Of a DNA stretch of 40,098 nt, positions 15,018 through 32,216 are shown piece after piece. The first letter of the stretch is position 1. The number at the start of each line of letters is the position of its first letter. Below the pieces are notes generated by a model that ran no database searches, was not told where the DNA came from, and worked only from the letters and a program-made list of their open reading frames with translations. Location: positions 16,053 to 56,150 of the forward strand of contig JAIEEY010000077.1 in the NCBI GenBank assembly GCA_029067205.1. Reading direction: 5' to 3'. Source of the DNA: Lachnospiraceae bacterium. GTDB taxonomy: Bacteria; Bacillota; Clostridia; Lachnospirales; Lachnospiraceae. The position numbers and the translations under genes were made by a program.

Positions 15018-15046
15018 AGAATACTACAAATAAAAACAAGTGTCAA
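15018..15046 (-). promoter_or_regulatory. Sigma-A-type promoter of ylxM-ffh-rpsP-khpA
   Basis: On the minus strand, TTGACA (15046-15041), 17 bp, TATTCT (15023-15018). The -35 box is part of the descending arm of the upstream terminator hairpin, so the two signals share bases. Confidence 0.65.
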
Positions 15047-15065
15047 GTGTTTTTTCTTGACACCT
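15028..15065 (-). terminator. Rho-independent terminator of the phosphonate block
   Basis: On the minus strand GTGTCAAG and CTTGACAC pair around an A-rich 8-nt loop, followed by TTGTTTTTATTTG. It begins about 25 bp after the last gene of the block. Confidence 0.75.
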
Positions 15066-15089
15066 GAACTTTATTTTTTCAAAAACTTC

Positions 15090-17252
15090 CTAATAGGCTG
15101 CACTCCCAATCGACCAACTGTCAAGGTCTGCGGCATGTCCATCAATTAAAAATTCAATATTATAATTACTATAAATAAACCTATATGTACGCACTCTCTG
15201 ATCATCAATTGGTATTTCCTCAAATGCTCGTCCATAAGAGGCATATTCTAGATCAAACGCTTTCAAAATAGTTGGAATTAACTCTTCCTGTGATACAGGC
15301 GCCTCATTTATGTCCATCTTCTCATGACACTCACCAGGCTTTTTTACCAAAAATAACGGACGAGATGTATCATCTATTTTTCCATCGTACCCTTCTATAT
15401 TAAAAACATGCTTTTGTCCATGGTCTGCTGTTATGATAATCGTAGCATCATTATATTTTCCAAGTGCCTTCATCTGCTCCAAGTATTCATACACAATTTT
15501 CAAACTGCCCTTTCCTTGTGAGTCAGCAGATGAATCACTTCCTGTTGGATCATATCTTAAATTTTCTGTCATATAATAGGGATTATGTGGACCTCTCATA
15601 TGATAAAAACGAAATGCAGTTTTATATGTCTCAGATACACTTAACCCTTTTTCTACAATATCATAATAAAACCAAAGATCATTATCAATACTCCATATAT
15701 CATTATTATATGTCATCTCTTTAATATCAGATGTATAATATCCATACAAAGACTTCAACAAAAATGGAGCAATTTTATACATTGAACTCTTCATCATGGT
15801 GCAATATGTTTTAACAAAATTGTATTTTCTAATGATAGAATCAGAATAATTATCCAACCTCTGATACAATTCTTTTGACATCAGATTCAAATCTGTAAAA
15901 ACTCTAACATCCGTTCCTCGTTCTGCAATCTTTTCCAAAACGTTACTATTCTCATATGCATATTGAAAGTAATTATCTACATCTGTATTCCACTCTACTC
16001 CAGTTAACATGTATGGTATTCCCAAATCCGTAAATGCAAATTGTGAAGTCCCGTTTCTATAAAAAGTAAAATCCATTAGAGGTTCTAAAATACTACTATC
16101 ATCCTGATAGATTTCCTCAAACCAACTGCTGTCAAAATTGTCCAACACAAACACAAGCACATTGTTTTCCTGTGCCAGTTCAAGTGAACCTTTATTTGTA
16201 ATCGCAGCATATTGATTTTGATTTTTTATATCTGACGTGAGAAGAAGCCAGCCTAATGTCACTAGCTGAATCAGCGATATATACACACATAACATTTGAC
16301 ATATTTTCCTGATGGCCTTCTTGCGGTATCCCCCGATTACAGAGATCAACAAAATTACAATCCATATACAGATATTGACAAAAAGCTTATGTACGGGCCA
16401 AATCTGTTCTTCCCCGTTCATGGTGTTTAATGTACCATTCAGAAACATACTTTGCAGATATCCTGCACAACTTATGCCAGCGAACAACAGATACATAACC
16501 CGAAAAAGCTTTTTTGGCAGAAACAATAAAAATACAACCATCAACAAAAGTATCTCTGCTACACTGCCAATCAGCATAATCAGAAAAAAAGCAGCATAAT
16601 TTCCCACAAACTCTTCTATATTGTGTATATACAGCTCATTCGGGAAATATACCCCTGTCATCACTACCCATGCACTTACAAATGGTAGTGCCTCTATAAA
16701 CCTGGATTTGAACTCTTCTCTGCCAATATACTCAATCGGATGATGATAGACAAGGTTTTTGCGAATATATTTACTTGTTCGAATAGGGCGGTTATCATTA
16801 TAAAATGAAATGAATCCTCCAACCAACATACAAAATACATACAAAATACAGTAATTTTTGTTATTGATCCGCCCAAACAAGAGCAATTCAATTACTATTA
16901 CCGCTACATAGATAAAATCAAATATATGCACAAGATGATAACCATACGATGAAAACAGCCGTTTCATCAGTAATGGAACCACAATAGATATCGCGATAAA
17001 AACAATCCCATAGTGCAAATAGGTTCTACCCACCACATCCCAGAAACTTTCAGTCAATGTGATTTCTGCCTCATCCAGATATGACTTTATTGCCGACACG
17101 GTAAAATAAATTCCCGCAAAGAAGAATAAAACAGATTTGAGGCTGTAGAGTTTCATACTGTCCTCTATACAATCCCGATTAAGCACTGTCCATATACCAC
17201 CTGCAATGATTCCAAAAAGCAGTATATACAATATCATTCCTACACTCTGCAT
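15090..17252 (-). CDS. Membrane sulfatase-fold transferase A (LTA-synthase/phosphoethanolamine-transferase-like)
   Basis: This 720-residue protein has about ten hydrophobic segments in residues 1-350, then a large extracytoplasmic alkaline-phosphatase/sulfatase-fold domain. Metal-site motifs include LVFVLDNFD, a likely nucleophile threonine in AFTDLGIPYMLTG, HMRGPHNPYY and IIITADHG. Relatives such as LtaS and EptA move glycerol-phosphate or phosphoethanolamine from lipid donors to surface acceptors. No sulfatase Cys/Ser-x-Pro-x-Arg modification motif is seen, so transferase is more likely than sulfatase. It is the last gene of the phosphonate block, visibly AT-rich, and preceded by an AGAGG site. 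I infer that it places AEP or another phospho-group on a surface glycan or teichoic acid; the substrate is unproven. Confidence 0.78.
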   Translation of the reverse strand: MQSVGMILYILLFGIIAGGIWTVLNRDCIEDSMKLYSLKSVLFFFAGIYFTVSAIKSYLDEAEITLTESFWDVVGRTYLHYGIVFIAISIVVPLLMKRLFSSYGYHLVHIFDFIYVAVIVIELLLFGRINNKNYCILYVFCMLVGGFISFYNDNRPIRTSKYIRKNLVYHHPIEYIGREEFKSRFIEALPFVSAWVVMTGVYFPNELYIHNIEEFVGNYAAFFLIMLIGSVAEILLLMVVFLLFLPKKLFRVMYLLFAGISCAGYLQSMFLNGTLNTMNGEEQIWPVHKLFVNICIWIVILLISVIGGYRKKAIRKICQMLCVYISLIQLVTLGWLLLTSDIKNQNQYAAITNKGSLELAQENNVLVFVLDNFDSSWFEEIYQDDSSILEPLMDFTFYRNGTSQFAFTDLGIPYMLTGVEWNTDVDNYFQYAYENSNVLEKIAERGTDVRVFTDLNLMSKELYQRLDNYSDSIIRKYNFVKTYCTMMKSSMYKIAPFLLKSLYGYYTSDIKEMTYNNDIWSIDNDLWFYYDIVEKGLSVSETYKTAFRFYHMRGPHNPYYMTENLRYDPTGSDSSADSQGKGSLKIVYEYLEQMKALGKYNDATIIITADHGQKHVFNIEGYDGKIDDTSRPLFLVKKPGECHEKMDINEAPVSQEELIPTILKAFDLEYASYGRAFEEIPIDDQRVRTYRFIYSNYNIEFLIDGHAADLDSWSIGSAAY

Positions 17253-17282
17253 TCATAATCCTCTTTTCTCATCCATCAATAT

Positions 17283-18416
17283 TTACTTCCCACCGTGATA
17301 TCCACTCATAAAATGAATCCTGTTCTCCCTTGCACTCTCTTTTGGTCTGCCAAGATCCGCGCGGGAATCCAGTGATGTCATCACTTCGATCATGGAAAGT
17401 TCTTTTCTGTCTTTGGCAGCAAGAAGCGCCGCCTCCAATTCAGATCCTGTTTGCACCAGATATGTGCCTGAATATCCACATGCTTTTGCAATCTGAGAAT
17501 ATGTCTGACCACTAAAGCCTGTCGGCATTGCCCCAACAGATTCATGTGCTGCATTGTTAATCACTATATGCAGAAGATTCTTTGGTGATTGTTTTGCAAG
17601 AAACGCCAATGCCCCCATATGCATCATCACCGCGCCATCGCCGTCGATACATACAATACATCTGTTTTCATCAGCCTGCGCCATGCCATATGCAATCATC
17701 GATGCATGTCCCATTCCTCCCACAGTCATAAAAAGCCTGTCATGATTTCCGTATAGTATGTCACTCTGTTCATACAGTTCTCTTGATATTTTCCCTGTTG
17801 TGGAAACGATATACGAATCATTATATACTTTTTCGAGAATTATCTTCAACGCCTGTTCGCGGACAAATTCATAGCCATTTTCCCATGAAAATGTATATTC
17901 TTTCTCAAATGCCCCCTTTTTAACAACAATCGCATACTGCCTGTTGTCCTCCATTTGTCTGTGTGCCTGAACCAGAATCTCCTTAAGCCGTGATTCTGAA
18001 GTAGTATCGTCAATCACAGAATACGGCACATCCATGACCTCCAAAAGCTCACAGGTCACTTTTCCCTGATAAACATGCTGCGGTTCATCTTTTATCCCTG
18101 GTTCGCCACGCCATCCAACAACAAACAGCACAGGGATTCCATACACCTCCTGATTGGCAATTGACGCCAGCGGATTGATGATATTCCCGAGACCGGAATT
18201 TTGCAGATACACCAGACAGGGGCGTTTTTCTGCCAGATATACGCCTGTTGCAAGTCCAACCGCTGCGCCTTCATTTGCAGTCACATAATGCTGAAATTCC
18301 TTTCCCTCATCAAGGCAGACTGCATCACAAAACTGTTTTAAAGTAGAGTCTGGGACACCTGCAATTGTGTGAATTCCTATATTCTTGATTTCCTCCAAAA
18401 AAACGCTTGCTTTCAT
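17283..18416 (-). CDS. aepY: Phosphonopyruvate decarboxylase
   Basis: This thiamine-diphosphate enzyme converts phosphonopyruvate to phosphonoacetaldehyde, the step that makes PEP mutase flux irreversible. The 377-residue length is typical. The activating glutamate is in YVTANEG (Glu49), and the ThDP motif runs from GDG (residues 259-261) to NN (287-288), with NNAAHESVGAMPTG after it as in Fom2/AepY proteins. Sulfopyruvate decarboxylase is the nearest alternative, but the PEP mutase gene in the same block decides for phosphonopyruvate. It sits between the two sulfatase-fold genes and has an AGGGGATT site. Confidence 0.93.
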   Translation of the reverse strand: MKASVFLEEIKNIGIHTIAGVPDSTLKQFCDAVCLDEGKEFQHYVTANEGAAVGLATGVYLAEKRPCLVYLQNSGLGNIINPLASIANQEVYGIPVLFVVGWRGEPGIKDEPQHVYQGKVTCELLEVMDVPYSVIDDTTSESRLKEILVQAHRQMEDNRQYAIVVKKGAFEKEYTFSWENGYEFVREQALKIILEKVYNDSYIVSTTGKISRELYEQSDILYGNHDRLFMTVGGMGHASMIAYGMAQADENRCIVCIDGDGAVMMHMGALAFLAKQSPKNLLHIVINNAAHESVGAMPTGFSGQTYSQIAKACGYSGTYLVQTGSELEAALLAAKDRKELSMIEVMTSLDSRADLGRPKESARENRIHFMSGYHGGK

Positions 18417-18452
18417 TTCTAATCCCCTTTTCTGTTCTTTCCATTGATTATT

Positions 18453-20627
18453 TCATCGAAAATCATTGTATTCATCAGTCGCAATCCAATTGCTAAAATC
18501 CAGTGAACTTCCTTTGATTTTGTATGTTCTTACTGCTGTCTGCACCATATTCTCGACAACATGAAAATAATGAACCCGCTCACGCCCTGGGTTACTCGCA
18601 TCGTCTGAAAGTAAATCAATTCCCCACTCTTTATCAGCAGTTATCCCTATCGCTCCTGCCAGAGTAGGCAGCAAGTCACTTTGTGCCGCGTACGTTTCCG
18701 AATAACACAATGGTTCTTCTGATCTTCCTCTTGGTTTAATATACATAATGACATTTACTTTTTCAGGAAGCACATTTCCATTTTCAAAATTATCACCATG
18801 ATCAGCTGTAATAATAACTGTCGCATTTTCATATAAACCAAGTCTTTTTAATTCATCCAAATAATTGTACACAATCTGCATACTACCCATATACTGTTCC
18901 ATATTCAAATCTTTTGACTCTCCAACACGATTGCCATCTCTGTCAAGAGAATATGGAGGATGTGCTCCAAACATATGAATAAACCGAAACGCCTTGCGAT
19001 CATCATTGATTGTAAGACCTGACTCTTCCAACTGCAATTTTATTTTTGCATCATCCATTTCATATTGTTCTTGTGTCCATATTTTATTAGATATCACAAG
19101 ATCATTAATCGTATCCTCCGTATAGCTGAAATAATCTTTTACGATATATGGCATTATCCTATAACAATTCATTGTATGAATACTTCTAATACATCCCATT
19201 AGAGATAGTTCCTTTTTCATAAGCTCTCCCTGTTCAATGTAATTATCCGTCTGCTGTTTTACACTGTCTCCAATATAGGAAACATGATCTTCATAAAAAT
19301 ACATATGAAAATCTTTTTCGGCTAAATCTTTCCAAAAAGAACAATCGTCAAACGCCCAGTTGATATAATTTTCTCCTGAGGGTACATTAAAAAAGGTATG
19401 ATTTGTCAACATGTATGTTATCGCTGGATACGTTCTTGAAAACTGGGCAACAGTATCTGGAAAACTCACAAATCCTTTCAATGGATCCAAAAAATCAGGC
19501 TCTTCCTCCAGAACCTCCTGCATATACTTCCCATCATATTTATCTAAAACAAATACAATTACGTTCTCTTCTGCTGCAACTTCATACAATCCATTTGTAG
19601 AAAAATACTCTGACTCCTTTCTTGTTTCAAAATGACCACTATTTTTTATAAGTAAAGAAAAAACTCCTGTTAACTGCATAACCACTATTGCGGCACAGCA
19701 AAATTTTAAAATGCCTTTCCAGTTCTCCTTACAGCAATACCTAAGAACAAATATTCCCACAAATATGATTCCCCATATAATTACATTCAATATTTTAATT
19801 CCAACAGTCCACTCCCTATTTACTCCATCCATCAAAAAAAGTTGCCTGTTTAGGAATAGCGCCTGTAAATATGCCGCTAATGTAAAAGAAAATATTCCAA
19901 GAATAGTCATTTCCCATATCTTACCTGACAAATTATTCAAAATAACCATTATTACAAAAAATACTATTGTCAAAAATATTATAAGGCATAGCAAAATATC
20001 TTTAAGAGCAAATGAGAATTCCTCTGAATTTGATAAAAATGTCTCAAGATAAGGATATACACAGACAGTTATGATAAAAGCTAAAGTAATTGTAACCGAT
20101 AACTTATCCTTGTGCCTTTTACTATCGTCAAGAACTATTTTCATAGTCAGATGGGATATCACTGCAATCTCTATCCAAACAATCAATCCAATCACTGATA
20201 TCACTTCTGGAATCAGACAATGATAGAAAGCACTATTGATATTTCTATATTTAAGATATTGATATATAAAGGCACCTGTCATAGCTATGACGATGCATAT
20301 TAGAACAACCAAAATATTGTTTCCTTTTTTAGTGCGATCGGTATACATATATGACTTAGGCAGAAGGGACACACCTGCTATTCCCATCAAAATGTCAATC
20401 ATAAGTAAACGTAAATCCTGAGTATATGAGAAAAACTCCCCTGTTCGCAAGAAAATTAATCTTCCAACACCCATAAAACAGTATCCACTAAATATGTAAA
20501 TTGCAGCAAAAACCGCTTTATCCCCAAATGACTTTAATTCTAATGCCTTTCCTTTCAGTCTCATGGCAGTCATACCAAACACTACTGCTAAAAGCATCAT
20601 TTCTATTACGGTGACTTTTTCTGACAT
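18453..20627 (-). CDS. Membrane sulfatase-fold transferase B, paralogue of A
   Basis: This 724-residue protein has the same layout as the protein encoded at 15090: many membrane helices in residues 1-340, then a sulfatase-fold domain. Shared motifs are VIVFVLDKYD, a probable nucleophile in SRTYPAITYMLTN, FIHMFGAHPPYS and VIITADHGDN. The two are clearly paralogous but much diverged, which suggests two different acceptors, donors or positions. An AAGGAG site precedes the start. The gene is AT-rich compared with ffh or smc, consistent with horizontal gain. Sulfate-ester hydrolysis is unlikely, as no formylglycine motif is seen. A role in adding AEP or phosphoglycerol to a surface polymer is inference from context. 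Confidence 0.78.
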   Translation of the reverse strand: MSEKVTVIEMMLLAVVFGMTAMRLKGKALELKSFGDKAVFAAIYIFSGYCFMGVGRLIFLRTGEFFSYTQDLRLLMIDILMGIAGVSLLPKSYMYTDRTKKGNNILVVLICIVIAMTGAFIYQYLKYRNINSAFYHCLIPEVISVIGLIVWIEIAVISHLTMKIVLDDSKRHKDKLSVTITLAFIITVCVYPYLETFLSNSEEFSFALKDILLCLIIFLTIVFFVIMVILNNLSGKIWEMTILGIFSFTLAAYLQALFLNRQLFLMDGVNREWTVGIKILNVIIWGIIFVGIFVLRYCCKENWKGILKFCCAAIVVMQLTGVFSLLIKNSGHFETRKESEYFSTNGLYEVAAEENVIVFVLDKYDGKYMQEVLEEEPDFLDPLKGFVSFPDTVAQFSRTYPAITYMLTNHTFFNVPSGENYINWAFDDCSFWKDLAEKDFHMYFYEDHVSYIGDSVKQQTDNYIEQGELMKKELSLMGCIRSIHTMNCYRIMPYIVKDYFSYTEDTINDLVISNKIWTQEQYEMDDAKIKLQLEESGLTINDDRKAFRFIHMFGAHPPYSLDRDGNRVGESKDLNMEQYMGSMQIVYNYLDELKRLGLYENATVIITADHGDNFENGNVLPEKVNVIMYIKPRGRSEEPLCYSETYAAQSDLLPTLAGAIGITADKEWGIDLLSDDASNPGRERVHYFHVVENMVQTAVRTYKIKGSSLDFSNWIATDEYNDFR

Positions 20628-20654
20628 TCTCTTTTGCTCCTTTATGTTTTTGTT

Positions 20655-21365
20655 TTATAAAACATTTGCGTCCAGTGCAATCAATTCATCCACCGTATCA
20701 ATCTCCACAATCTGCCCTTCTTCCACTGGAAAGACTTTCAAGCGAAGCCTGTCAAGATTCTGATCAACAACTTCATCCCAGAACAGGTCTGCACTCGCTT
20801 CTTGATCATACGCTTGTACGATCGCATCGACAAGGATTTTTGCATCTTCTTTTTTAAAAAAAGAAATTCCGACCATGTTGTAGGTATCTGTTCCGCCCTT
20901 TCCCACTCTGGAGATCAAACCATCCTGCTGTTCAAATACCCAGTCATCCGAATATCCCCTGACCATCTTTCCATAATAACCAGAACAATCGAGGTTTTTG
21001 CCAAAAACAGATAAATCTGACACAAGTAAATCAGCCTCGCAGATAAAACAGTCTGCCATTCCCAGTACATCTCTTGCAGCATAAATAGAGGAAATGTTAT
21101 TTTTTACAGAATAATCTGGATTTACCAGCAAATGGATTTCCTGGTATTTCTCACACAAATAAGAAAATTGTTCTTTCAGATATCCTACAACAACATATAT
21201 TTCTGATATATCCCTGCTTTTTAAACCTTCTATGACCGTTTCAATCAAAGGCTTTCCAAACACTTTTACAAGCGGTTTTGGCATATTTAAAGTCAATGGA
21301 CGCATCCGAGTACCGAGTCCTGCCGCCATGATAATCCCGATTTCTTTTTCCATATATCTTACCAT
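20655..21365 (-). CDS. LicC/PntC-like CTP:(choline/aminoethylphosphonate) cytidylyltransferase
   Basis: This 236-residue single-domain nucleotidyltransferase starts with the pyrophosphorylase signature GIIMAAGLGTRMRPLT and PKPLVKVFGKPL. The KNNISSIYAARD segment and the CEADLL metal-site motif resemble LicC (phosphocholine) and PntC (2-aminoethylphosphonate) cytidylyltransferases more than sugar-phosphate enzymes. In a block making AEP, activation to CMP-AEP is the obvious reading, though a hexose-phosphate substrate is not excluded. Met5 (21353) is an alternative start. The 163-bp gap upstream (21366-21528) holds only a weak 7-bp inverted repeat and no clear promoter. Confidence 0.82.
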   Translation of the reverse strand: MVRYMEKEIGIIMAAGLGTRMRPLTLNMPKPLVKVFGKPLIETVIEGLKSRDISEIYVVVGYLKEQFSYLCEKYQEIHLLVNPDYSVKNNISSIYAARDVLGMADCFICEADLLVSDLSVFGKNLDCSGYYGKMVRGYSDDWVFEQQDGLISRVGKGGTDTYNMVGISFFKKEDAKILVDAIVQAYDQEASADLFWDEVVDQNLDRLRLKVFPVEEGQIVEIDTVDELIALDANVL

Positions 21366-21528
21366 TCTCTCTAGACAGCGTTATTTTGTACCATTCAGTA
21401 CTTTTCTGGCTACAAGCATCAAGCTATGTAAAAGTATTTTTTGTTTGGCTTGATACATTTCACAGTTTACATATTTCAACAATCAGCGCAATATATACGC
21501 AAACCTATACTAAATCGTTACTTTATTA

Positions 21529-22824
21529 TTACATATCATCTATCAAAGTGATAATCTCCTGAAACGGCATCAGTTTCGAGTCAACCTCCAATGCCCTGTG
21601 GTTTTTCAAGATTTCAACTGCCGTACTCTGCATTGCCGGAAATGCACTTCTCGTCAACTGGTTTGCATAAATTACAATATTGACACCATGCTGTGCAAGC
21701 TCCGCCTCCGTAACACTGTTAAAAGAAGTTGGTACGACAACAATAGGAGTGTCCCTATTTTCACTTCGAAATCTGTCACAGAACTCAAAAATCTCATCTG
21801 GCGATTTCTTTCTGGAGTGAATCATAATTGCATCTGCTCCGCTCTCCACATATGCAAAGGCACGCCTCAAAGCATCCTCCTGCCCTTTTTCCAATATAAG
21901 GCTCTCAATTCGTGCAATGATCATGAACTCCTCTGTCCGCTGCGCATTTTTTCCAGCACGAATCTTTTCGCAGAAGTTTTCAATGGAATCCTGTGTCTGC
22001 TCTACCTCCGTTCCGAATAGGGAATTTTTCTTTAATCCTGTCTTGTCCTCAATGATGACCGCAGACACACCCATACGCTCCAACGTGCGCACATTGTATA
22101 CAAAATGTTCCACAAGACCGCCTGTATCACCATCGAGGATAATCGGTTTTGTCGTCACCTCCATCACATCGTCAATCGTGCGCATTCTCGATGACATGTC
22201 GACGAGCTCGATATCTGGCTTTCCCTTTGCGGTAGAATCACACAAACTTGACAGCCACATCGCATCAAATTGGTCAAGTTCTCCATTGTGCTCAACGATT
22301 GTCTTCTCCGCAATCAATCCTGTAAGTCCACTGTGAACCTCTATCGTTTTCACAACAGGACATAACTTGATCAGCTGACGAAGACGTCTCCTCCTATACT
22401 CTGGCATGGCAAGCTTTTCCTTAATGTTGTCATCGATTTTTTTCACATTCTCATTATAAGTATAACCAGTCTCAATCAGCTCTCCGCCATACTTCTTTAA
22501 ATTGGCAATAACATTTTGCCGAATCGCGCGCTCAGGACCTTCACACCAGTTATCCCCATGAATCACATAGTCCGGCCTAACTTCTGCGAAAATCGAATCA
22601 TACATAATTTCATCTTGAATCACCACGGAACCTGCAAGTCCAGTGTCCAGCACAATCTGCTTTCGCTCCTCTATCGTGATCGTTGGAAACCTGTTGAACT
22701 TGATCATAGCGGCATCACTTAAAATTCCAACGATTACCTCACCATATTTATTTGCTTCACGGAGAATATTCAAATGTCCTTCATGAATCACATCTGTACA
22801 GAAACAGGTATATACCTTTTTCAT
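21529..22824 (-). CDS. pepM: Cytidylyltransferase-phosphoenolpyruvate mutase fusion
   Basis: PEP mutase rearranges phosphoenolpyruvate to phosphonopyruvate and makes the C-P bond that starts nearly all phosphonate pathways. Residues about 140-431 are the mutase: DGDTGG at 221-226 and the diagnostic EDKTGLKKNS at 249-258, matching the EDKx5NS motif that separates mutases from isocitrate-lyase relatives. Residues 1-130 are a TagD-like cytidylyltransferase domain with VIHEGH (HxGH, 14-17) and IEERK, followed by GDNWCEGPERAI. Such fusions are known in some phosphonate clusters. With the separate LicC-like gene, the block has two nucleotidyltransferases. The aminotransferase gene precedes it by 85 bp. 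Confidence 0.94.
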   Translation of the reverse strand: MKKVYTCFCTDVIHEGHLNILREANKYGEVIVGILSDAAMIKFNRFPTITIEERKQIVLDTGLAGSVVIQDEIMYDSIFAEVRPDYVIHGDNWCEGPERAIRQNVIANLKKYGGELIETGYTYNENVKKIDDNIKEKLAMPEYRRRRLRQLIKLCPVVKTIEVHSGLTGLIAEKTIVEHNGELDQFDAMWLSSLCDSTAKGKPDIELVDMSSRMRTIDDVMEVTTKPIILDGDTGGLVEHFVYNVRTLERMGVSAVIIEDKTGLKKNSLFGTEVEQTQDSIENFCEKIRAGKNAQRTEEFMIIARIESLILEKGQEDALRRAFAYVESGADAIMIHSRKKSPDEIFEFCDRFRSENRDTPIVVVPTSFNSVTEAELAQHGVNIVIYANQLTRSAFPAMQSTAVEILKNHRALEVDSKLMPFQEIITLIDDM

Positions 22825-22909
22825 GTGCTACACCAAACCTTTCCATAATGAATCTGTAACTATTCGGTTTCCTTGTAGTATTAAGGAACTGTTATGACCT
22901 GCATATATA

Positions 22910-24052
22910 CTATTTGTTATATTGAACAGGTATTTGAACATTGAACGTCCTGAGTGCCTCCTCCAAAACAACAAAAAATTCCTCGATATCCTCTGCGGTG
23001 ATCGCTCCCAGCGCACAGAGCCGGAATGTGTTCTGTGTTGACACTTTTCCTGGATAGATTGTAAAACCGCGCTCATAACAATAGTCATGCACTTTCTCAA
23101 AATCCCAGTTTGCATCGTCAGGATACTTCACAGATACGACTAACCCCGCCTGCAGTTCCCTCTTGATGATATCCTGAAATCCCAAACGCTCAAGTCCTGT
23201 ATGAATCGCCTCAAAAACACTCCGATGCCGCCCCCATTTTGCCTCCTCACCCTCTGCGAAATACTCATCAATTGCCTGTCTTGCAGCATAGATTGTCTGA
23301 ACCGGAGGCGTAAAGTGCATCTCTCCTGTCGTCTCAAAAAAATGGTACTGCAGGTACAAATTACAGTAATATGACCGCTTCGGATAGTCTGCTGATTTTC
23401 TGATTATCTCTGTATTTCCAACGATAAAAGAGAGTCCTGTCATTGCCATAAGCCCCTTCTGTGCAGATGCCATACAGAAATCAATATTGTCTTTCTCAAT
23501 ATCAATTGGGCGCATTGCATAAGTGGAAGTAGTATCCACTGTAAACACTGCACCATATTTGTGTACCAGTGCACCTATTTCCCTAATCGGATTTAAGATA
23601 CCTGTCCCAGTTTCATTATGCGTCGTATGAACAAGTGCGATATCTGGATTTTCTTTTAATATCTGCTCTATCTTATTTAGATCAGGCTGCTCATCTACTG
23701 GGAATTTCAAGTCAATAAAGGGTAAGCCATAATACGCACAGATTTCCACCGCCCTGGCACTGTAAGCGCCATTATTGATAACAAGCACCTTTTTCCCTTC
23801 CGGCAGCAGGGAATTCAGGCAGATATCAATGTTGATTGTACCCGAACCACAGAACAAAACAGAGGTGTATTTATCAAAATCACCGTGAACAATACGCACC
23901 AAATCTTCACGCATCTTTTTCATCATAGACGCGAACTCTTTCTCCCTAGGACAAATATCTGGCACAATCTGTGCCATTTTTACAGTATCCGTTGTCGTTG
24001 CGGGACCCGGATTCAATAAAATATTTCTTTTTATATTAGAAACTCTATCCAT
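22910..24052 (-). CDS. phnW: 2-aminoethylphosphonate aminotransferase (PhnW/AepZ-type)
   Basis: A class V, PLP-dependent aminotransferase that would aminate phosphonoacetaldehyde to 2-aminoethylphosphonate (AEP), completing the pathway. From the ATG at 24052 it has 380 residues: LLNPGPATTTDTV at the start, CGSGTINID, HNETGTG, TVDTTSTY, and SAQKG with the PLP lysine at 199. This start is chosen because GGAGG lies about 10 nt upstream; the longer frame up to 24274 would lie inside the methyltransferase gene. It overlaps that gene by 8 nt, implying coupled translation. Catabolic PhnW enzymes run the reverse reaction, but the adjacent PEP mutase and decarboxylase argue for biosynthesis. Confidence 0.9.
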   Translation of the reverse strand: MDRVSNIKRNILLNPGPATTTDTVKMAQIVPDICPREKEFASMMKKMREDLVRIVHGDFDKYTSVLFCGSGTINIDICLNSLLPEGKKVLVINNGAYSARAVEICAYYGLPFIDLKFPVDEQPDLNKIEQILKENPDIALVHTTHNETGTGILNPIREIGALVHKYGAVFTVDTTSTYAMRPIDIEKDNIDFCMASAQKGLMAMTGLSFIVGNTEIIRKSADYPKRSYYCNLYLQYHFFETTGEMHFTPPVQTIYAARQAIDEYFAEGEEAKWGRHRSVFEAIHTGLERLGFQDIIKRELQAGLVVSVKYPDDANWDFEKVHDYCYERGFTIYPGKVSTQNTFRLCALGAITAEDIEEFFVVLEEALRTFNVQIPVQYNK

Positions 24053-24785
24053 TTGACATTTTCCTCCACTCAGAGTTGAATTTATTTTTATACATATAAC
24101 AAGAAAACACAAATTGATTATTCCAATATCCTTCCATATCTTGATCTGAAAATTCAACAAGTAATTGATGTTTTCCAGCAAATTTTTCAAAGAATTGCTT
24201 TGGGTAAAAAAGCTTTGGCAAATTAGCGTATCGCTTGTCATAGTCCTTAATGATCCTTCTTCTATAGGAAACAAATTCGTCTTTTTTTTCTATATTATGT
24301 ATATCTATCAGTCCAATAACATAATTCGCCTTATCTAGCATTTTTTCCAGAACTCGTTCTGCGTACTCCTCATTCTCAAAATAAGAAAAAACACTATTCG
24401 AAAATACCGCATCATATTTTTTCTCTATTGGCAAATCAATTGCTTCAGCACATAAAATATCCTGTGTACTTAACACTTGCTTTGCAAGTTGAACTAAACT
24501 GGAAGAAAAGTCCAGTCCTCCCGAAAATACGTTCTCACTTTCGAATAAGTAGAGATTTGCACCACTGCCACAGCCAACCTCATATACACTCTTTATTGGA
24601 TTGTATTTTTGAAGATTTTTCTTGATTTCTTCATATTGTGCGCAAAATGCCTCAAATGACATTCCCTCTGCAACATCAAACCCATTACTCCTTTTCAGTT
24701 CCAGTAGTATAGCTCTTTTATCACCATTCAAAAGAATTTCACTATCTGCCGTTTTCCCATTCCATATTTTTTTCCAGCTATTCAT
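24045..24785 (-). CDS. Class I SAM-dependent methyltransferase
   Basis: This 246-residue methyltransferase has motif I YEVGCGSGANLYLFE and a typical post-motif I GLDFSSSLVQLAKQ, then CAEAIDLP and DAVFSNSVFSYF. The ATG at 24785 is preceded by AGGAGG and begins 1 nt after the fusion gene's stop; its own 3' end overlaps the aminotransferase start. This tight packing places it in the AEP pathway. Methylation of the AEP nitrogen or of a glycan residue bearing AEP are both plausible, and the sequence does not decide. Confidence 0.85.
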   Translation of the reverse strand: MNSWKKIWNGKTADSEILLNGDKRAILLELKRSNGFDVAEGMSFEAFCAQYEEIKKNLQKYNPIKSVYEVGCGSGANLYLFESENVFSGGLDFSSSLVQLAKQVLSTQDILCAEAIDLPIEKKYDAVFSNSVFSYFENEEYAERVLEKMLDKANYVIGLIDIHNIEKKDEFVSYRRRIIKDYDKRYANLPKLFYPKQFFEKFAGKHQLLVEFSDQDMEGYWNNQFVFSCYMYKNKFNSEWRKMSNG

Positions 24786-24786
24786 C

Positions 24787-26733
24787 TTATTCCTCCTCTT
24801 CTGCCTCATGTAACTCCTTAAAATATGCAAGACGTTCCATAATGTATTGCGCTCCAACCTCTCCGCTTGAACCAATATTGTAAATATATTTATTCCGGAT
24901 TTTCTCAAGCGCTTCTGTCGAAAATGCATTACTGTGAAGCAACTCCTCCACTATTTGAGGTAGTGTATCCAACTTGTCCATATCAACACTTCTACCCACT
25001 ACACTGCGCAGCTCAATGTCAATCGGCGTAATGCCAAGTTCTTGATAATCCTCATTTAATATTTTCATTGGCGTATTAATATACAATGAAGGCTTTAAGG
25101 TTGCAAAAGAATATTCAAAAGCAATACTAGACCAATCTGTAATCAATATATCTGCCTCATACACTGTTTTATTAGATGAAAAATCTGTCTGTAGTTCCAT
25201 ATCGTCACGAGTATCAATATTGAATTTTTGGCGCAAATATGTCAAGCGTGCCTCTTCATGCCGTACAAACTGTGGATGTGGTCTAACGATAATCTTATAA
25301 CCATGTCCCTGCAGATTCGCTAAAATCTCTTCAATGCATGATGATAAGATATTATCTTTCTGCCATGACGGTGCTATTAAAACTTTCTTAACCCTTTTTG
25401 TGCTTTTATTCATTGCACTATAAGCTTGAATCATATTGTCAATAACACTAGATCCCCATTCTATAATTCTTTTTGGGGGCAGTTTATAAAGTTCCTCCCG
25501 TTTCCTGATTTCTTTTGTACACAAAACTCCCGAAGAAAAAATTGTGTCAAAATGATCCAGAGCCTCCTTGCGAAAAGCCATGTTTACACTGTTCACATCA
25601 TGCGGCACATAGATATATTCATTATCTTTGCGCACAAGCGAACGCTTGATGTGAAAGCTTTCCAGATCCGGCGTTGTCATCACGACAATATCGGCTTCCA
25701 TCTTCATCATCAACACAATCAGCTTGTTTTCCCCAATATAATATGGTTTAAATCGATCGCTTTCCATCTCAAAAACCTTGTCATTCGGATCACTCGTAAT
25801 ATAATTGATCACCACATCAGATTTTTCCAGAAGTGTCTCGATGATATTTTGAAAATATTTATAAAAACCATTCTTCTCCGAGTAAAACACCAGCTGCATC
25901 TCATAATCCTTAAAAAAGCGCTTGTAATCCGCCTTTTCCTTCTTTCTATAAGGATCTTTTTCAAACAGTTTCTTTTTATTCTGCCTCCCAAAGGCACTCG
26001 CCGCTTTTAGTTCTTCGCGGCTCTTTTCCAGTGCCTCGTAGTCAATGTATTTCTTTGGATTCATGATGATATTGAGAAAATACAGCTGCAGTACCGAAAA
26101 AAGATTACTGAAAGTCCAGTATATACCGACGCCCGTCTTGACAAAAAAACCAAGATACAAAGACAGGCCAATGGACAGAATCATCGTCCCTAACTGATTT
26201 ACTTTCCCCTGTTCCGACTGCAGGACATTAATTCTATTCTGTATATAACACATAAACCACGCAGAAAACGCAGCGATCAGAGGAATCAGATATGCAATTC
26301 CTCCAACCTCTGCGGGAACAGATGACAAATCAAGACTGCCAAGCATTGTGTCAAGTATACCCGGTTTTCCACGAAAAATATGCTCTTCCGGATGATTGAT
26401 CACATCAATAACACCCATCAGCAGGATCAACTGCAATGCCAGCGGAATCAAGTCAGCGAGCGGCTGATAGTGTTCTCTCTTATAAAGCTCATATTGTTCT
26501 TCCGAAATCTTCTCACTGTTTCCATAATACTTTGCCTTGATAAAATTCATTTCTGGCTGCATTTTTACCATTTTGATCGAGTTTTTCTGAACCCACAGTG
26601 ATACTGGCATCAGAACAATCTTCGTTCCAAAGGTAAAAATAATGATCGAGATAAAATAGTCTGGCAGAATGTGATAACAAAAATACATCAGCCAGCCTAA
26701 GACATCGCCTATCAGACCTATTATATCATTCAT
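24787..26733 (-). CDS. YidC/Oxa1-like membrane domain fused to TagB/TagF-type CDP-glycerol glycerophosphotransferase
   Basis: Residues about 1-235 resemble a YidC/Oxa1 insertase: several helices, TKIVLMPVSLWVQKN after the first helix, a charged loop, and a second helix cluster ending FSNLFSVLQLYFLN. The groove residue that is Arg in most insertases appears to be Lys38. Residues about 275-648 resemble CDP-glycerol:glycerophosphate transferases, with IIVRPHPQF (from 481) and ITDWSSIAFEYS (from 531); the usual WHG motif appears as VPHDV (His378). It would join glycerol-phosphate (or a related unit) to a membrane acceptor while anchored by the YidC part. It is the second gene of the block, 24 bp after the small membrane protein gene. 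Confidence 0.88.
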   Translation of the reverse strand: MNDIIGLIGDVLGWLMYFCYHILPDYFISIIIFTFGTKIVLMPVSLWVQKNSIKMVKMQPEMNFIKAKYYGNSEKISEEQYELYKREHYQPLADLIPLALQLILLMGVIDVINHPEEHIFRGKPGILDTMLGSLDLSSVPAEVGGIAYLIPLIAAFSAWFMCYIQNRINVLQSEQGKVNQLGTMILSIGLSLYLGFFVKTGVGIYWTFSNLFSVLQLYFLNIIMNPKKYIDYEALEKSREELKAASAFGRQNKKKLFEKDPYRKKEKADYKRFFKDYEMQLVFYSEKNGFYKYFQNIIETLLEKSDVVINYITSDPNDKVFEMESDRFKPYYIGENKLIVLMMKMEADIVVMTTPDLESFHIKRSLVRKDNEYIYVPHDVNSVNMAFRKEALDHFDTIFSSGVLCTKEIRKREELYKLPPKRIIEWGSSVIDNMIQAYSAMNKSTKRVKKVLIAPSWQKDNILSSCIEEILANLQGHGYKIIVRPHPQFVRHEEARLTYLRQKFNIDTRDDMELQTDFSSNKTVYEADILITDWSSIAFEYSFATLKPSLYINTPMKILNEDYQELGITPIDIELRSVVGRSVDMDKLDTLPQIVEELLHSNAFSTEALEKIRNKYIYNIGSSGEVGAQYIMERLAYFKELHEAEEEE

Positions 26734-26757
26734 AGTGCTATTGTTCTCCGTAAAGTG

Positions 26758-27003
26758 TTATTGCTTGTCCTCAGACTGATGCTTTTTCTTGGCATGTTTC
26801 TTTTTCTGGCTGCGGAAAAACTTCATAATCTTATGCCTATATACAGTACAAGCTGCACCGATAGCAATCGCTACTCCTGCAACTGCCTGGATTACATATG
26901 TCACTGCTGATGGATCAATATACGCAAAAGAAGTATTACCCAACAGCACGAAAAAACAAGTGAAAAAATAAGTAAATTTCAATGCTTTTATGATCTTTTT
27001 CAT
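26758..27003 (-). CDS. Small membrane protein, first gene of the phosphonate block
   Basis: This 81-residue protein has a signal-like hydrophobic N-terminus ending near NTSFA, then a short AYIDPSAVTYVIQ segment, a second hydrophobic helix (VAGVAIAIGAA) and a strongly basic tail (KKKHAKKKHQSEDK). YIDP-type small proteins of this shape are familiar to me beside surface-polymer genes in Clostridia, but I know of no defined function. Its basic tail would lie in the cytoplasm. Being first after the operator-promoter, and directly before the YidC fusion, it could be an accessory subunit of that protein. Confidence 0.8.
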   Translation of the reverse strand: MKKIIKALKFTYFFTCFFVLLGNTSFAYIDPSAVTYVIQAVAGVAIAIGAACTVYRHKIMKFFRSQKKKHAKKKHQSEDKQ

Positions 27004-27050: not shown

Positions 27051-27079
27051 ACTTTAGCCTAAAATGTTCTAAATGTCAA
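27051..27079 (-). promoter_or_regulatory. Promoter of the phosphonate block
   Basis: On the minus strand, TTGACA (27079-27074), 17 bp, TAAAGT (27056-27051), followed by 47 nt to the first start codon. The -35 box lies within the spacer of the inverted repeat at 27061-27090. Confidence 0.7.
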
Positions 27080-27380: not shown

Positions 27381-27389
27381 ATACCTAAA

Positions 27390-27438
27390 TATGAAAGAAA
27401 TGGCAAGTATTCAATTTTTACTTGCCATTTCTTTCATA
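27390..27438. terminator. 20-bp perfect hairpin between convergent genes
   Basis: TATGAAAGAAATGGCAAGTA and its exact complement pair around a 9-nt loop. It lies between the ends of the XRE gene (27380) and the YitT gene (27441). On the minus strand it is followed by T-rich sequence, so it likely ends the ilvA-yitT transcript and can serve both directions. Confidence 0.65.
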
Positions 27439-27440
27439 TA

Positions 27441-30816: not shown

Positions 30817-32199
30817 TCATCCCATATGTTTTGTATTCATACACACGATCTCATAAATGTTTACATTGCCGCTCCCTGTCCGGTCAGAATCCACAAATCC
30901 GAAAAACAAAAACTGTGTGCAGACAGGTGCGAATACCCTTGTCGTAATATCCGCATTTGCCTTGTTTACATAGCCCATGTCAATCGTCATCCATTCCTGC
31001 GCCGCAGAATCCCAATAAAGTACATTCCACTTTACAGTATTGAGCGAAGAATCTTCCTTAATCCCTGCATGATATATCGCATAGGCATCCAGCTCTACCT
31101 CATTTCCCAGATCAAGGATCACATAATGCTGCAGATCTTTTCCCAGCCATTCATCCTGCCTGTTTGCATCTGCAGCCGCCGCCGACCACTTTGTATCCAG
31201 ATCATTATCCACCAGAAACTCTGCAATACTGTGTTCTGACGATGCGCCGGAACACCTATATATGATCGCTCCATTACACAAATTTCCTGCAAAGCTTTGC
31301 GACGGATACGAAGGATTTTTTACTCCTGGCAGGTTCTCTGTGATAACATTGTCAGAATATCCGGCAAACCCGTTAAATTCCCAGCTTCCTGTCTCTAGTT
31401 CAGACACATACCGCTGACGTAACTGCTCCATATTATCCAGACCTGTTATCTTCTTCACAATCGCATTAAACTGTGGATCCTCCATTTTATCATTTTGTAT
31501 CTTTCCTTCCTGTATGGAAAAATGAATTGCGTCAATCAGACCATAAATCCGTTTGCCGGAAGCATCCACTGTTGTCGGATACCGACTGTCCATATATGTG
31601 AAAAACAGCTCTGATTTTCCATAGGCAGCCCAGTCCCAGTCTTTCCATCCAGGATCCAGCAGATCTACATTAAAAAGGTTTCTGTTGTCATTCATTGTCA
31701 TAAACTGCGGCTCTGTCCAGTTAAAATACCGCCAGACACAATACTCCGCCAGAGATTCTGTCCACCAGTCCGACCGAAAATTATCATAGCACTCAACCAC
31801 ATGTCCAAGCTCATGTACCAGTACAGCCAGACGATCCTGCCTCTGATTGTTATCCTCTGCCCCGATCACGATGTAGCGTTCCCGCGATCCCTGCTCTTGT
31901 GATGTATAGCCGCCAAAAATTTTCTCACCAACTACAGCCTGTGGCACAATCTGAACCCGGACGATCTCCTGCCGCCGCTCATCCTGCCGCCCCCAGCGGA
32001 CGACAAGACGCGGATATACCTGACTAAATACATACTGCATCTGCGCCTGCATATCTGCATTATTCAGAAGACTCCAATCCCCGTCACAAACCATCTGGTA
32101 ACTTTCTGCCGCATGAACGAGACAGGCAGGCTCTGCAAACAGCCATGCTGCAAAAAACACAGCCAACCCCCGTCTCCAAAGTTTCAATATTCTTTCCAT
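30817..32199 (-). CDS. Secreted zinc metallopeptidase with C-terminal F5/8 (discoidin-like) domain
   Basis: From Met at 32199, after GGAGG, this is a 460-residue protein with a signal peptide (basic MERILKLWRRG, hydrophobic core, cleavage near CLVHA-AES). The zincin motif HELGH (residues 129-133) is followed by TESLAEY, whose Glu is the likely third zinc ligand. Residues about 315-460 look like a galactose-binding/F5-8 type C jelly roll: NDLDTKWSA, YVILDLGNEVELDAYAIYHAG. It would act outside the cell, bound to a glycan or the wall. The upstream start at 32247 would overlap the smc end. Placement between smc and ftsY is unusual for a secreted enzyme. Confidence 0.87.
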   Translation of the reverse strand: MERILKLWRRGLAVFFAAWLFAEPACLVHAAESYQMVCDGDWSLLNNADMQAQMQYVFSQVYPRLVVRWGRQDERRQEIVRVQIVPQAVVGEKIFGGYTSQEQGSRERYIVIGAEDNNQRQDRLAVLVHELGHVVECYDNFRSDWWTESLAEYCVWRYFNWTEPQFMTMNDNRNLFNVDLLDPGWKDWDWAAYGKSELFFTYMDSRYPTTVDASGKRIYGLIDAIHFSIQEGKIQNDKMEDPQFNAIVKKITGLDNMEQLRQRYVSELETGSWEFNGFAGYSDNVITENLPGVKNPSYPSQSFAGNLCNGAIIYRCSGASSEHSIAEFLVDNDLDTKWSAAAADANRQDEWLGKDLQHYVILDLGNEVELDAYAIYHAGIKEDSSLNTVKWNVLYWDSAAQEWMTIDMGYVNKANADITTRVFAPVCTQFLFFGFVDSDRTGSGNVNIYEIVCMNTKHMG

Positions 32200-32216
32200 A
32201 GTTTTCCTTCCTCCGA

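Follow-up and report, generated by a model that had tools for sequence, protein, structure and literature searches.

According to the abstract of Rice 2019 (PMC6697681), most of the phosphonate capacity of bacteria is directed to cell surfaces, and the tailoring that follows formation of the C-P bond is called enigmatic there. The question raised by the locus considered here is how 2-aminoethylphosphonate (AEP), once made and activated, could be delivered to the outside of a Lachnospiraceae cell. The window, i.e. the whole stretch of 40,098 nucleotides that was analysed, contains a cassette of nine genes (15090-27003) with yitT on one side and ylxM-ffh on the other, all on the minus strand and where the earlier note had placed them (Table 1). 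We lean towards the view that this cassette is a self-contained operon that tags surface glycans with AEP by means of one membrane machine, in which folds of the YidC, TagF and sulfatase types would work together with a YIDP peptide. A single machine is proposed because its parts are found in four kinds of shuffled fusion and in a conserved neighbourhood. The new point is this delivery part, in which the four elements co-occur and are fused in shuffled pairs. Among the titles and abstract openings listed in a literature search, none dealt with YidC-TagF or YidC-sulfatase fusions, or with the YidC/YIDP/TagF/sulfatase set, and since subscription papers were mostly outside its coverage the absence of earlier reports is unproven.

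The locus and its surroundings

The order ftsY-ilvA-yitT on one flank and ylxM-ffh on the opposite side, where ftsY, ilvA and ffh were identified by inspection of the sequences, agrees with the housekeeping surroundings described earlier. The block has a GC content of 0.380, and its flanks have 0.443 and 0.439. The proposal that the block was acquired has also gained ground, as the same site in the own genus carries the cassette in one of the eight other regions that were read and is without it in several. Terminator-like hairpins (61 vs 45.8, sd 7.2, in shuffles) and promoter-like sites (11 vs 7.0, sd 2.9) are only somewhat commoner than in shuffled sequence. A repeat search gave a single result, a perfect inverted repeat of 21 nt in the interval that separates yitT from the cassette, and Rfam and tRNA scans gave no matches. 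The source genome is a draft assembly in 504 contigs, and its estimated contamination is 8.7%.

Table 1 Features of the cassette and its borders, in the order of transcription
Feature	Position	Strand	Remarks
Promoter-like site	27051..27079	(-)	Upstream of first gene; weak evidence
YIDP peptide, 81 aa	26758..27003	(-)	No Pfam or NCBIfam match
YidC-TagF fusion, 648 aa	24787..26733	(-)	PF02096 103.5 bits; PF04464 39.6 bits
SAM methyltransferase, 246 aa	24045..24785	(-)	Listed ORF longer; chosen start has GGAGG upstream
AEP transaminase, 380 aa	22910..24052	(-)	TIGR03301 469.5 bits (cut-off 360.8); GGAGG at start
PF01467 cytidylyltransferase fused to PEP mutase (PepM)	21529..22824	(-)	TIGR02320 414.5 bits (cut-off 319.55)
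PntC/LicC-like cytidylyltransferase	20655..21365	(-)	Glu110 at AEP-selectivity position
Putative sulfatase-fold membrane phosphotransferase B	18453..20627	(-)	PF00884, N-terminal membrane helices; Thr399 at nucleophile position
Phosphonopyruvate decarboxylase (Ppd)	17283..18416	(-)	TIGR03297 444.4 bits (cut-off 312.5)
Putative sulfatase-fold membrane phosphotransferase A	15090..17252	(-)	PF00884, N-terminal membrane helices
Terminator-like hairpin	15037..15066	(-)	3' of last gene; weak evidence

Synthesis and activation of AEP

The full route from PEP to AEP that had been proposed is borne out by PepM, Ppd and the AEP transaminase, all of which score above curated NCBIfam cut-offs. PepM has the sequence EDKTGLKKNS at 259, which fits EDKX5NS, the diagnostic motif of these enzymes (Rice 2019, PMC6697681). 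Activation with CMP is likewise supported. The cassette has two cytidylyltransferases, one of them fused to PepM. The top PDB match of the PntC/LicC-like enzyme is LicC (1jyk, 1.1e-34), with a weaker match (3.7e-8) to 6pd1, which we take to be Tde-PntC; with the residue offset that we assumed for the Tde-PntC positions Glu104 and Glu196, it has Glu at the former but a LicC-like Asp at the latter. Judged by these family matches, which are strong for the first three enzymes, PepM, Ppd and the transaminase would convert PEP to AEP, and the PntC-like enzyme would convert AEP to CMP-AEP. Such a combination of AEP synthesis and CMP activation follows the known Pnt logic (Rice 2019).

The place of the methyltransferase is different. 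Its tblastn matches among loci L001-L165 were confined to stretches of the window's own genome, by which it is ruled out as a core part. Of the genes first described, the membrane transferases belong to the conserved cassette, and the methyltransferase falls outside the conserved set.

Recurrence of the cassette in Lachnospiraceae

Apart from its methyltransferase gene, the cassette is a recurrent one in Lachnospiraceae. The order YIDP / YidC-TagF / AEP transaminase / PepM / cytidylyltransferase / (sulfatase) / Ppd / sulfatase was found, whole or partial, in many of the 29 loci that were retrieved with the YidC-TagF protein, several of which are cut by contig ends. For the neighbourhood, the block is not the unusual one it had seemed. 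Among 299 genomes of the family, about one per genus, 10 have both YidC-TagF (E <= 1e-80) and PepM (E <= 1e-50) where 1.7 are expected (P=2.5e-7), and the figures are 9 vs 1.6 when the own genome is omitted (P=1.5e-6), both P values being uncorrected for kinship; in 8 of the 10 genomes the two genes are at most 2 kb apart. Related genomes in which these genes are unrelated neighbours, named by the earlier note as fatal to its reading, are thus not what is found: the recurring order and the non-random co-occurrence rule this out.

The association can also be viewed from each gene separately. PepM is found without YidC-TagF in 22 of 32 genomes and without both versions of the machine in 18 of the 32, so that the machine appears to be one of several delivery routes; in the genome studied here, a LicD gene located elsewhere represents an alternative transferase. 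Conversely, 6 of 16 YidC-TagF genomes lack PepM, including G196 of the same genus. A tally covered 30 YidC-TagF loci that have 4 kb or more of sequence to either side; many of them are close kin, and their genes were labelled by BLAST to seeds. Of these loci, 26 have a cytidylyltransferase or PepM within 6 kb (4 do not), 22 have a sulfatase-fold gene within 9 kb (8 do not), and the YIDP peptide was counted in at least 19, to which tblastn adds L004, L007, L009, L015 and L016. Labels of this kind also underlie the gene order in the retrieved loci, the fusions, and the rows used for the YidC groove and selectivity positions, and they carry some caveats, since the "sulfatase" of L086 has no Pfam match and the cytidylyltransferase of L076 is a 143-aa frame. 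The tally leaves out L008, L084 and fifteen YidC-TagF loci with a contig end within 4 kb, and L028 and L030, which have the YidC part only, were not counted as YidC-TagF loci. L010 and L168, as well as L021 and L084, are apparently the same contigs, being of equal length and having identical YidC-TagF, and L007 and L008 are near-copies; near-copy loci were kept in the residue tally and in the YidC-TagF tree. On this tree the AEP label does not form one clade but requires 9 changes, at least 7 of them forced, and this scatter suggests that the linkage was partly re-formed. A search of viral contigs for the YidC-TagF protein found none.

Membrane proteins and shuffled fusions

The most informative part of the block consists of the YidC-TagF fusion, the YIDP peptide and the sulfatases. 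The TagF-like enzyme reported before is indeed present, but it does not stand alone: a YidC fold (residues about 1-235) precedes a TagF-like GT-B transferase part (about 262-648). The YidC part scores 97.7 bits against TIGR03592 (cut-off 84.3), and an AlphaFold model of the fusion (pLDDT 82.4, pTM 0.59) matches TagF 3l7k and YidC 3wo7, with structure-search ranks that fail to set the TagF part apart from UDP-GlcNAc epimerases. The YIDP peptide has a signal-like N-terminus ending in ...SFA; YIDPS comes next, then a single membrane helix and a tail rich in K and R.

In the sulfatase-fold proteins, Thr occupies the position of the formylglycine Cys of sulfatases in 20/20 aligned sequences, and in 4upk the residue aligned with Thr399 is the Cys that opens the C-x-P-S-R motif. 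T399, D362, H551, H556, D609 and H610 are invariant in the same 20 proteins, and include putative metal ligands besides the nucleophile-position Thr. Residues about 43-167 of protein B are poorly modelled, and structure-search ranks fail to set LtaS apart from sulfatases or YejM.

The position of the YidC groove Arg is occupied by Lys in all 45 TagF-fused rows that have a residue there (2 rows are gapped) and by N/Q in 20/20 sulfatase-fused rows. A separate housekeeping YidC is encoded in the same genome and has Tyr, so that loss of the Arg was dropped as proof of a non-insertase YidC domain; Lys or Asn/Gln at this position says little when a housekeeping YidC also lacks the classical Arg.

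The four kinds of fusion are YidC-TagF (in the window), YidC-sulfatase, YIDP-TagF and, in one case (L074), YIDP-sulfatase; elsewhere the YIDP element is fused to a TagF-like domain in 13 proteins and to a sulfatase in 1. A YIDP-TagF gene is present at a distance of at most 4 kb from 14 of the 20 YidC-sulfatase genes and is not within 4 kb in the other 6. Nine of the 20 have no recognised supply gene in 9 kb, some of these being near contig ends. Glycan genes occur near some loci, namely GtrII in L168, acyltransferase 3 in L002 and GT2 in L007.

Supply genes for CMP/CDP head groups often lie beside the modules, and are of AEP, hydroxyethylphosphonate, choline-kinase-like or CobD-like type. In alignments, the active-site residue at the PntC selectivity position tracks the supply type: it is E in 28/30 AEP-type rows, H in 13/14 hydroxyethylphosphonate or PepM-fused rows, S/C/P in 8/9 choline-kinase-type rows and E in 4/4 rows of CobD-like type, where the rows include PepM loci without the machine and ten "other" rows stand outside the four groups. 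The two AEP rows without Glu (L020_1556 and L092_13799) look like unrelated sugar nucleotidyltransferases, and both loci also have a Glu-type enzyme. Supply types other than AEP are only weakly suggested by neighbouring genes; none of the reductases, kinases and CobD-like proteins tested scored over a curated NCBIfam cut-off, and in L029 and L105 the best match is to ErcA and not to the phosphonate reductase model.

A possible mechanism and its alternatives

If the cassette encodes one machine, CMP-AEP would be consumed at the membrane. In the most likely, though hypothetical, order of events the cytosolic TagF domain would transfer AEP from CMP onto a membrane carrier, the YidC/YIDP part would hold the loaded carrier or pass it to the other side, and AEP would then be placed on glycans by extracellular sulfatase-fold enzymes with a Thr nucleophile. 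This would amount to use of AEP on a surface polymer. Judging from the adjoining genes, other genomes may feed this kind of machine with hydroxyethylphosphonate, with choline-kinase-like head groups or with CobD-like ones of ethanolamine or aminopropanol type. A more general and decidedly tentative proposal is that Clostridia move CMP/CDP-activated head groups across the membrane by means of a modular relay, in which the TagF fold loads, YidC/YIDP carries the lipid across and the sulfatase fold places the group on an outside glycan, with an exchangeable supply of AEP, hydroxyethylphosphonate, or choline- or ethanolamine-type groups. If such a relay exists, the YidC fold is used outside protein insertion.

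The strongest competitor, which we nevertheless consider unlikely, is that the TagF-like domain puts AEP directly on a lipid-linked glycan inside the cell, a route that has been proposed for CD0244 or for LicD, with the YidC fold and YIDP peptide serving only as anchors and the sulfatase-fold enzymes adding or removing other groups on the exported glycan. The TagF part resembles TagF and Cps3D, which act in the cytosol. Locus L025 has YidC-TagF with a cytidylyltransferase and YIDP, and no sulfatase-fold match in 22 kb. Moreover, the TagF-like protein CD0244 of C. difficile is required for phosphothreonine on flagellin GlcNAc, with no YidC or sulfatase partner in the published model (PMC10714395), so that a TagF part may decorate a glycan in the cytosol by itself. 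However, cytosolic decoration gives no reason for the fusion of sulfatase-fold domains to this very YidC fold and YIDP peptide, nor for the sulfatase-fold genes found near 22/30 YidC-TagF genes.

It is improbable that the YidC domain is a dedicated insertase for the YIDP and sulfatase-fold proteins beside the transferase, with no part in head-group movement. The fold is intact by profile and model, and the two supposed clients, both of them membrane proteins, have their genes close by, but the housekeeping YidC is already separate in the genome, and we know of no client-specific insertase that is joined to a cytosolic transferase as well as to an extracellular enzyme.

Still less credible as an end product is a membrane lipid with AEP, which the TagF domain would make and the sulfatase-fold proteins would recycle or remodel. 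AEP lipids do occur in nature, and the matched AP-superfamily structures include YejM/PbgA and LtaS, which handle lipids or lipid-borne groups; yet the cassette is devoid of acyl- or CDP-alcohol-type lipid enzymes, and the glycan genes of L168, L002 and L007 point away from a lipid product. A small diffusible phosphonate, or a set of neighbours without common function, scarcely merits consideration even though PepM also opens phosphonate antibiotic pathways and a cytidylyltransferase is likewise fused to PepM in Fom1, an enzyme of the fosfomycin pathway. The gene order is kept in many loci, co-occurrence is non-random, and a diffusible product is rejected on the gene content of the cassette: none of the nine genes encodes a tailoring oxidase, a peptide ligase or a member of a known exporter family.

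Implications

Under the preferred reading, delivery of AEP by one membrane machine, the locus is a concrete candidate for the missing phosphonate transfer steps. Phosphonate, phosphoethanolamine-like and choline-like surface tags would be linked through one shared kind of protein set, and the YidC fold would be tied to glycan modification, a tie that was not found in the literature search. The residue at the selectivity position may make it possible to predict from a sequence which head group is used. Some carriers are gut isolates, and in these such charged tags on the surface may have a bearing on phages, antimicrobial peptides and recognition by the host.

Comparison with known systems

In Treponema denticola and Atopobium rimae, the phosphonyl tailoring (pnt) clusters (Rice 2019, PMC6697681) share PepM, Ppd, AEP transaminase and a LicC-like cytidylyltransferase, here putatively acting on AEP, with the present cassette. 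Further common points are the domains PF01467 and PF12804, which are joined to PepM or located close to it, and a proposed surface use. The later steps are left open there, whereas delivery here would involve YidC-TagF, the YIDP peptide and sulfatase-fold enzymes; a term search of the main text of that paper gave no sulfatase, YidC, TagF or CDP-glycerol. The C. difficile type A flagellin glycan cluster CD0240-CD0244 shares a cytidylyltransferase and a TagF-like transferase and includes a methyltransferase, but the published model has no YidC fold, YIDP or sulfatase-fold protein, and its acceptor is flagellin GlcNAc (PMC10714395). By analogy, CD0244 may be regarded as a precedent for a TagF-like enzyme acting with a non-glycerol phospho head group.

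The TagF/TarL polymerases (3l7k, 8va1) and Cps3D (8qoy) have the same GT-B fold, and a conserved His and T/S-D-x-S motif align, at only 12-18% identity. Their donor is CDP-glycerol or CDP-ribitol, whereas the donor predicted from the neighbouring genes is CMP-AEP, and the domain is fused here to a YidC fold. The latter has the fold of the YidC2 insertase (3wo7; TM-score 0.69 by target length), from which it differs by fusion to TagF or sulfatase domains and by having Lys or Asn/Gln in place of the groove Arg. Finally, the LtaS/EptA-type phosphotransferases of the AP superfamily share N-terminal helices, the sulfatase fold, the nucleophile-position Thr and the DHG metal motif with the putative phosphotransferases of the cassette; LtaS is 15-20% identical to these in structure alignments, and relatives of the cassette's enzymes occur elsewhere fused to a YidC fold or to YIDP.

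Cassette composition

The nine-gene 2-aminoethylphosphonate (AEP) block that the earlier note placed between yitT and ylxM-ffh is borne out by the coordinates: all genes share a strand, and neighbours lie at most 163 bases apart and, at the closest, overlap slightly. The proposed route from PEP to AEP also stands, as PEP mutase (PepM), phosphonopyruvate decarboxylase (Ppd) and AEP transaminase all score above the NCBIfam cut-offs in family searches, and the reported AT-richness is confirmed (GC 0.380, against 0.443 and 0.439 in the flanks), with a minimum in the methyltransferase and both sulfatase-fold genes. The N-terminus of the PepM protein is a PF01467 cytidylyltransferase domain (Pfam) in which the HxGH motif, read from the sequence, is kept as HEGH; the best solved relative of residues 4-136 is 5x3d, a PDB entry listed as phosphomutase. 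A separate LicC/PntC-like enzyme is encoded after the PepM gene, and AEP cassettes retain these two different cytidylyltransferases for one head group. It is very likely that the cassette encodes both AEP synthesis and its activation with CMP. Elsewhere the genome has two further PF04464 genes and a LicD gene, whose cluster looks unrelated on inspection by eye.

Coordinates of features in the window and in loci of other genomes
Feature	Position	Strand	Remark
Cassette	15090-27003	-	nine genes
LicC/PntC-like cytidylyltransferase	20655-21365		after PepM gene
PepM protein	21529-22824		N-terminal PF01467 domain
YidC-TagF fusion	24787-26733	-	648 aa
YIDP	26758-27003	-	81-aa membrane peptide
Perfect inverted repeat	27389-27439		21 nt, 9-nt loop; between yitT and cassette
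HELGH frame	30817-32247		476 aa; between smc and ftsY
Triple fusion	L029:4159-6171		670 aa; nucleotidyltransferase, cytidylyltransferase, PEP mutase
Cas12a-like start, by eye	L170:1323-5042 (G688:C13)		1239 aa; about 13 kb from ylxM

A probable membrane machine of four modules

The YidC-TagF fusion combines an N-terminal part that resembles YidC (model versus 3wo7, TM 0.69) with a TagF-like C-terminal part, identified by the PF04464 profile and by TagF 3l7k as top Foldseek match of the model (6.1e-10). A profile of 12 TagF-like transferase domains retrieved Cps3D (4.7e-10) and TarL (2.5e-5) from the PDB. In two other PepM clusters (L094, L105) the modules are re-dealt as YidC-sulfatase (PF02096 and PF00884) and YIDP-TagF fusions; the latter also occurs in L096, and a YIDP-sulfatase fusion was seen once, in L074. 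The YidC-sulfatase form is present in 15/299 Lachnospiraceae genomes and in 10/341 genomes of the class, eight of these from one genus of another family, and only G022 in the family sample carries both forms. In a survey of the surroundings of 20 YidC-sulfatase genes, YIDP-TagF lies no more than 4 kb away in 14 cases, and genes recognised as supplying a head group no more than 9 kb away in 11. The repeated swapping of partners among the same four modules suggests that they cooperate functionally, and a dedicated membrane machine made of YidC fold, YIDP, TagF fold and sulfatase fold is likely.

The C-terminus of YidC lies in the cytosol, and therefore the fused TagF domain should be inside. Judged from its sequence, the YIDP element would have its YIDP motif outside, then one helix, and a basic tail inside, an orientation that would likewise place a TagF domain fused to it in the cytosol. 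The catalytic parts of the sulfatase-fold proteins, which follow several helices, are expected outside, and the module set would thus span the membrane, with a predicted CMP-using enzyme inside and a phosphotransferase fold with a Thr nucleophile outside. Thr399, Asp362, His551, His556, Asp609 and His610 are invariant in 20 aligned sulfatase-fold proteins, YidC-fused ones being left out, and in an alignment with phosphonate monoester hydrolase 4upk Thr399 falls on the sulfatase-motif Cys. In LtaS and EptA/MCR the nucleophile is Thr, which makes phosphotransfer more likely than sulfate removal. A relay order through a lipid carrier is a tentative and rather doubtful hypothesis.

Exchangeable head-group supply

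The supply genes adjoining the machine differ between loci. The window and most named loci carry the AEP set, while in L029, L080, L105 and L164 an iron alcohol dehydrogenase replaces the transaminase, giving a hydroxyethylphosphonate (HEP) set; the phosphonate-reductase model gives 249 bits for L164, 128 for L029 and 136 for L105, and so stays short of its cut-off (423.7) in all three. In L079 (PF01633) and several YidC-sulfatase loci a choline-kinase-like domain is either fused to the cytidylyltransferase or encoded next to it. A cytidylyltransferase-CobD-like fusion in L071, L072, L073 and L156 (CobD model 169 bits in L073 and 183 in L156, cut-off 290.55) might allow a single protein to make CDP-ethanolamine or CDP-aminopropanol.

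The position of Glu104 of Tde-PntC was mapped through a 1jyk alignment, with an assumed residue offset. It is Glu in 28/30 AEP rows, His in 13/14 HEP or PepM-fused rows, Ser, Cys or Pro in 8/9 choline-kinase rows and Glu in 4/4 CobD-like rows; the rows include PepM loci without the machine and share ancestry within a supply type, and hence do not count as independent. On a YidC-TagF tree built by a quick method, 9 changes are required to account for the AEP label, at least 7 of them forced. According to Rice 2019 (PMC6697681), Glu104 and Glu196 of Tde-PntC are placed to bind the AEP amine, and LicC has Asp at both positions.

Distribution and probable insertion site

The YidC-TagF protein matched 29 loci in named genomes, mostly titled Lachnospiraceae. 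Many of the sufficiently long loci have YIDP, YidC-TagF, AEP transaminase, PepM, cytidylyltransferase, Ppd and sulfatase-fold genes in the same or nearly the same order; L024, L025 and L026 gave no PepM match. Within the family, YidC-TagF occurs in 16/299 genomes, PepM in 32/299 and both in 10/299, versus 1.7 expected; the two lie within 2 kb in 8 of these 10 and on different contigs in G022 and G189. Beyond the family YidC-TagF is rare (two of five matches among 391 class genomes), and one of these two loci, L164, has PepM, Ppd and a reductase adjoining.

The cassette adjoins yitT in six loci (L002, L003, L004, L009, L010, L028), two of which (L004, L010) also have ylxM next to it; in the remaining loci it is located elsewhere or the locus is cut off. 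Of 11 other genus members searched, ffh was found in nine, and eight of those regions were read. L168 has the full cassette between yitT and ylxM, L167 just one 566-aa frame, which matches no Pfam family, and L169, L171 and L172 other genes; in L173 yitT, there in two frames, directly adjoins ylxM, and yitT was not seen in the regions read of L166 and L170. With such differing cargo, the site behaves like an insertion hotspot. G196, classed in the same genus, lacks PepM, and its YidC-TagF (L071) belongs to a different supply type. In three of six outgroup-order regions read (L174-L176) smc-ftsY-ylxM-ffh is contiguous or nearly so. Together these regions are consistent with an ancestral order of housekeeping genes in which a site for variable cargo arose later. 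The HELGH frame is present only in L028 among four related loci spanning smc-ftsY (L002, L004, L010, L028), and therefore looks like a species-level insertion.

Comparison with known systems

The triple fusion in L029 is like a rare class named in Rice 2019 (PMC6697681). AEP has been seen on the flagellin glycan of C. difficile, without a known source. For the TagF fold, a study of the same glycan describes the TagF-like CD0244 as needed for phosphothreonine on flagellin GlcNAc, with CDP-threonine as the donor proposed by its authors (PMC10714395).
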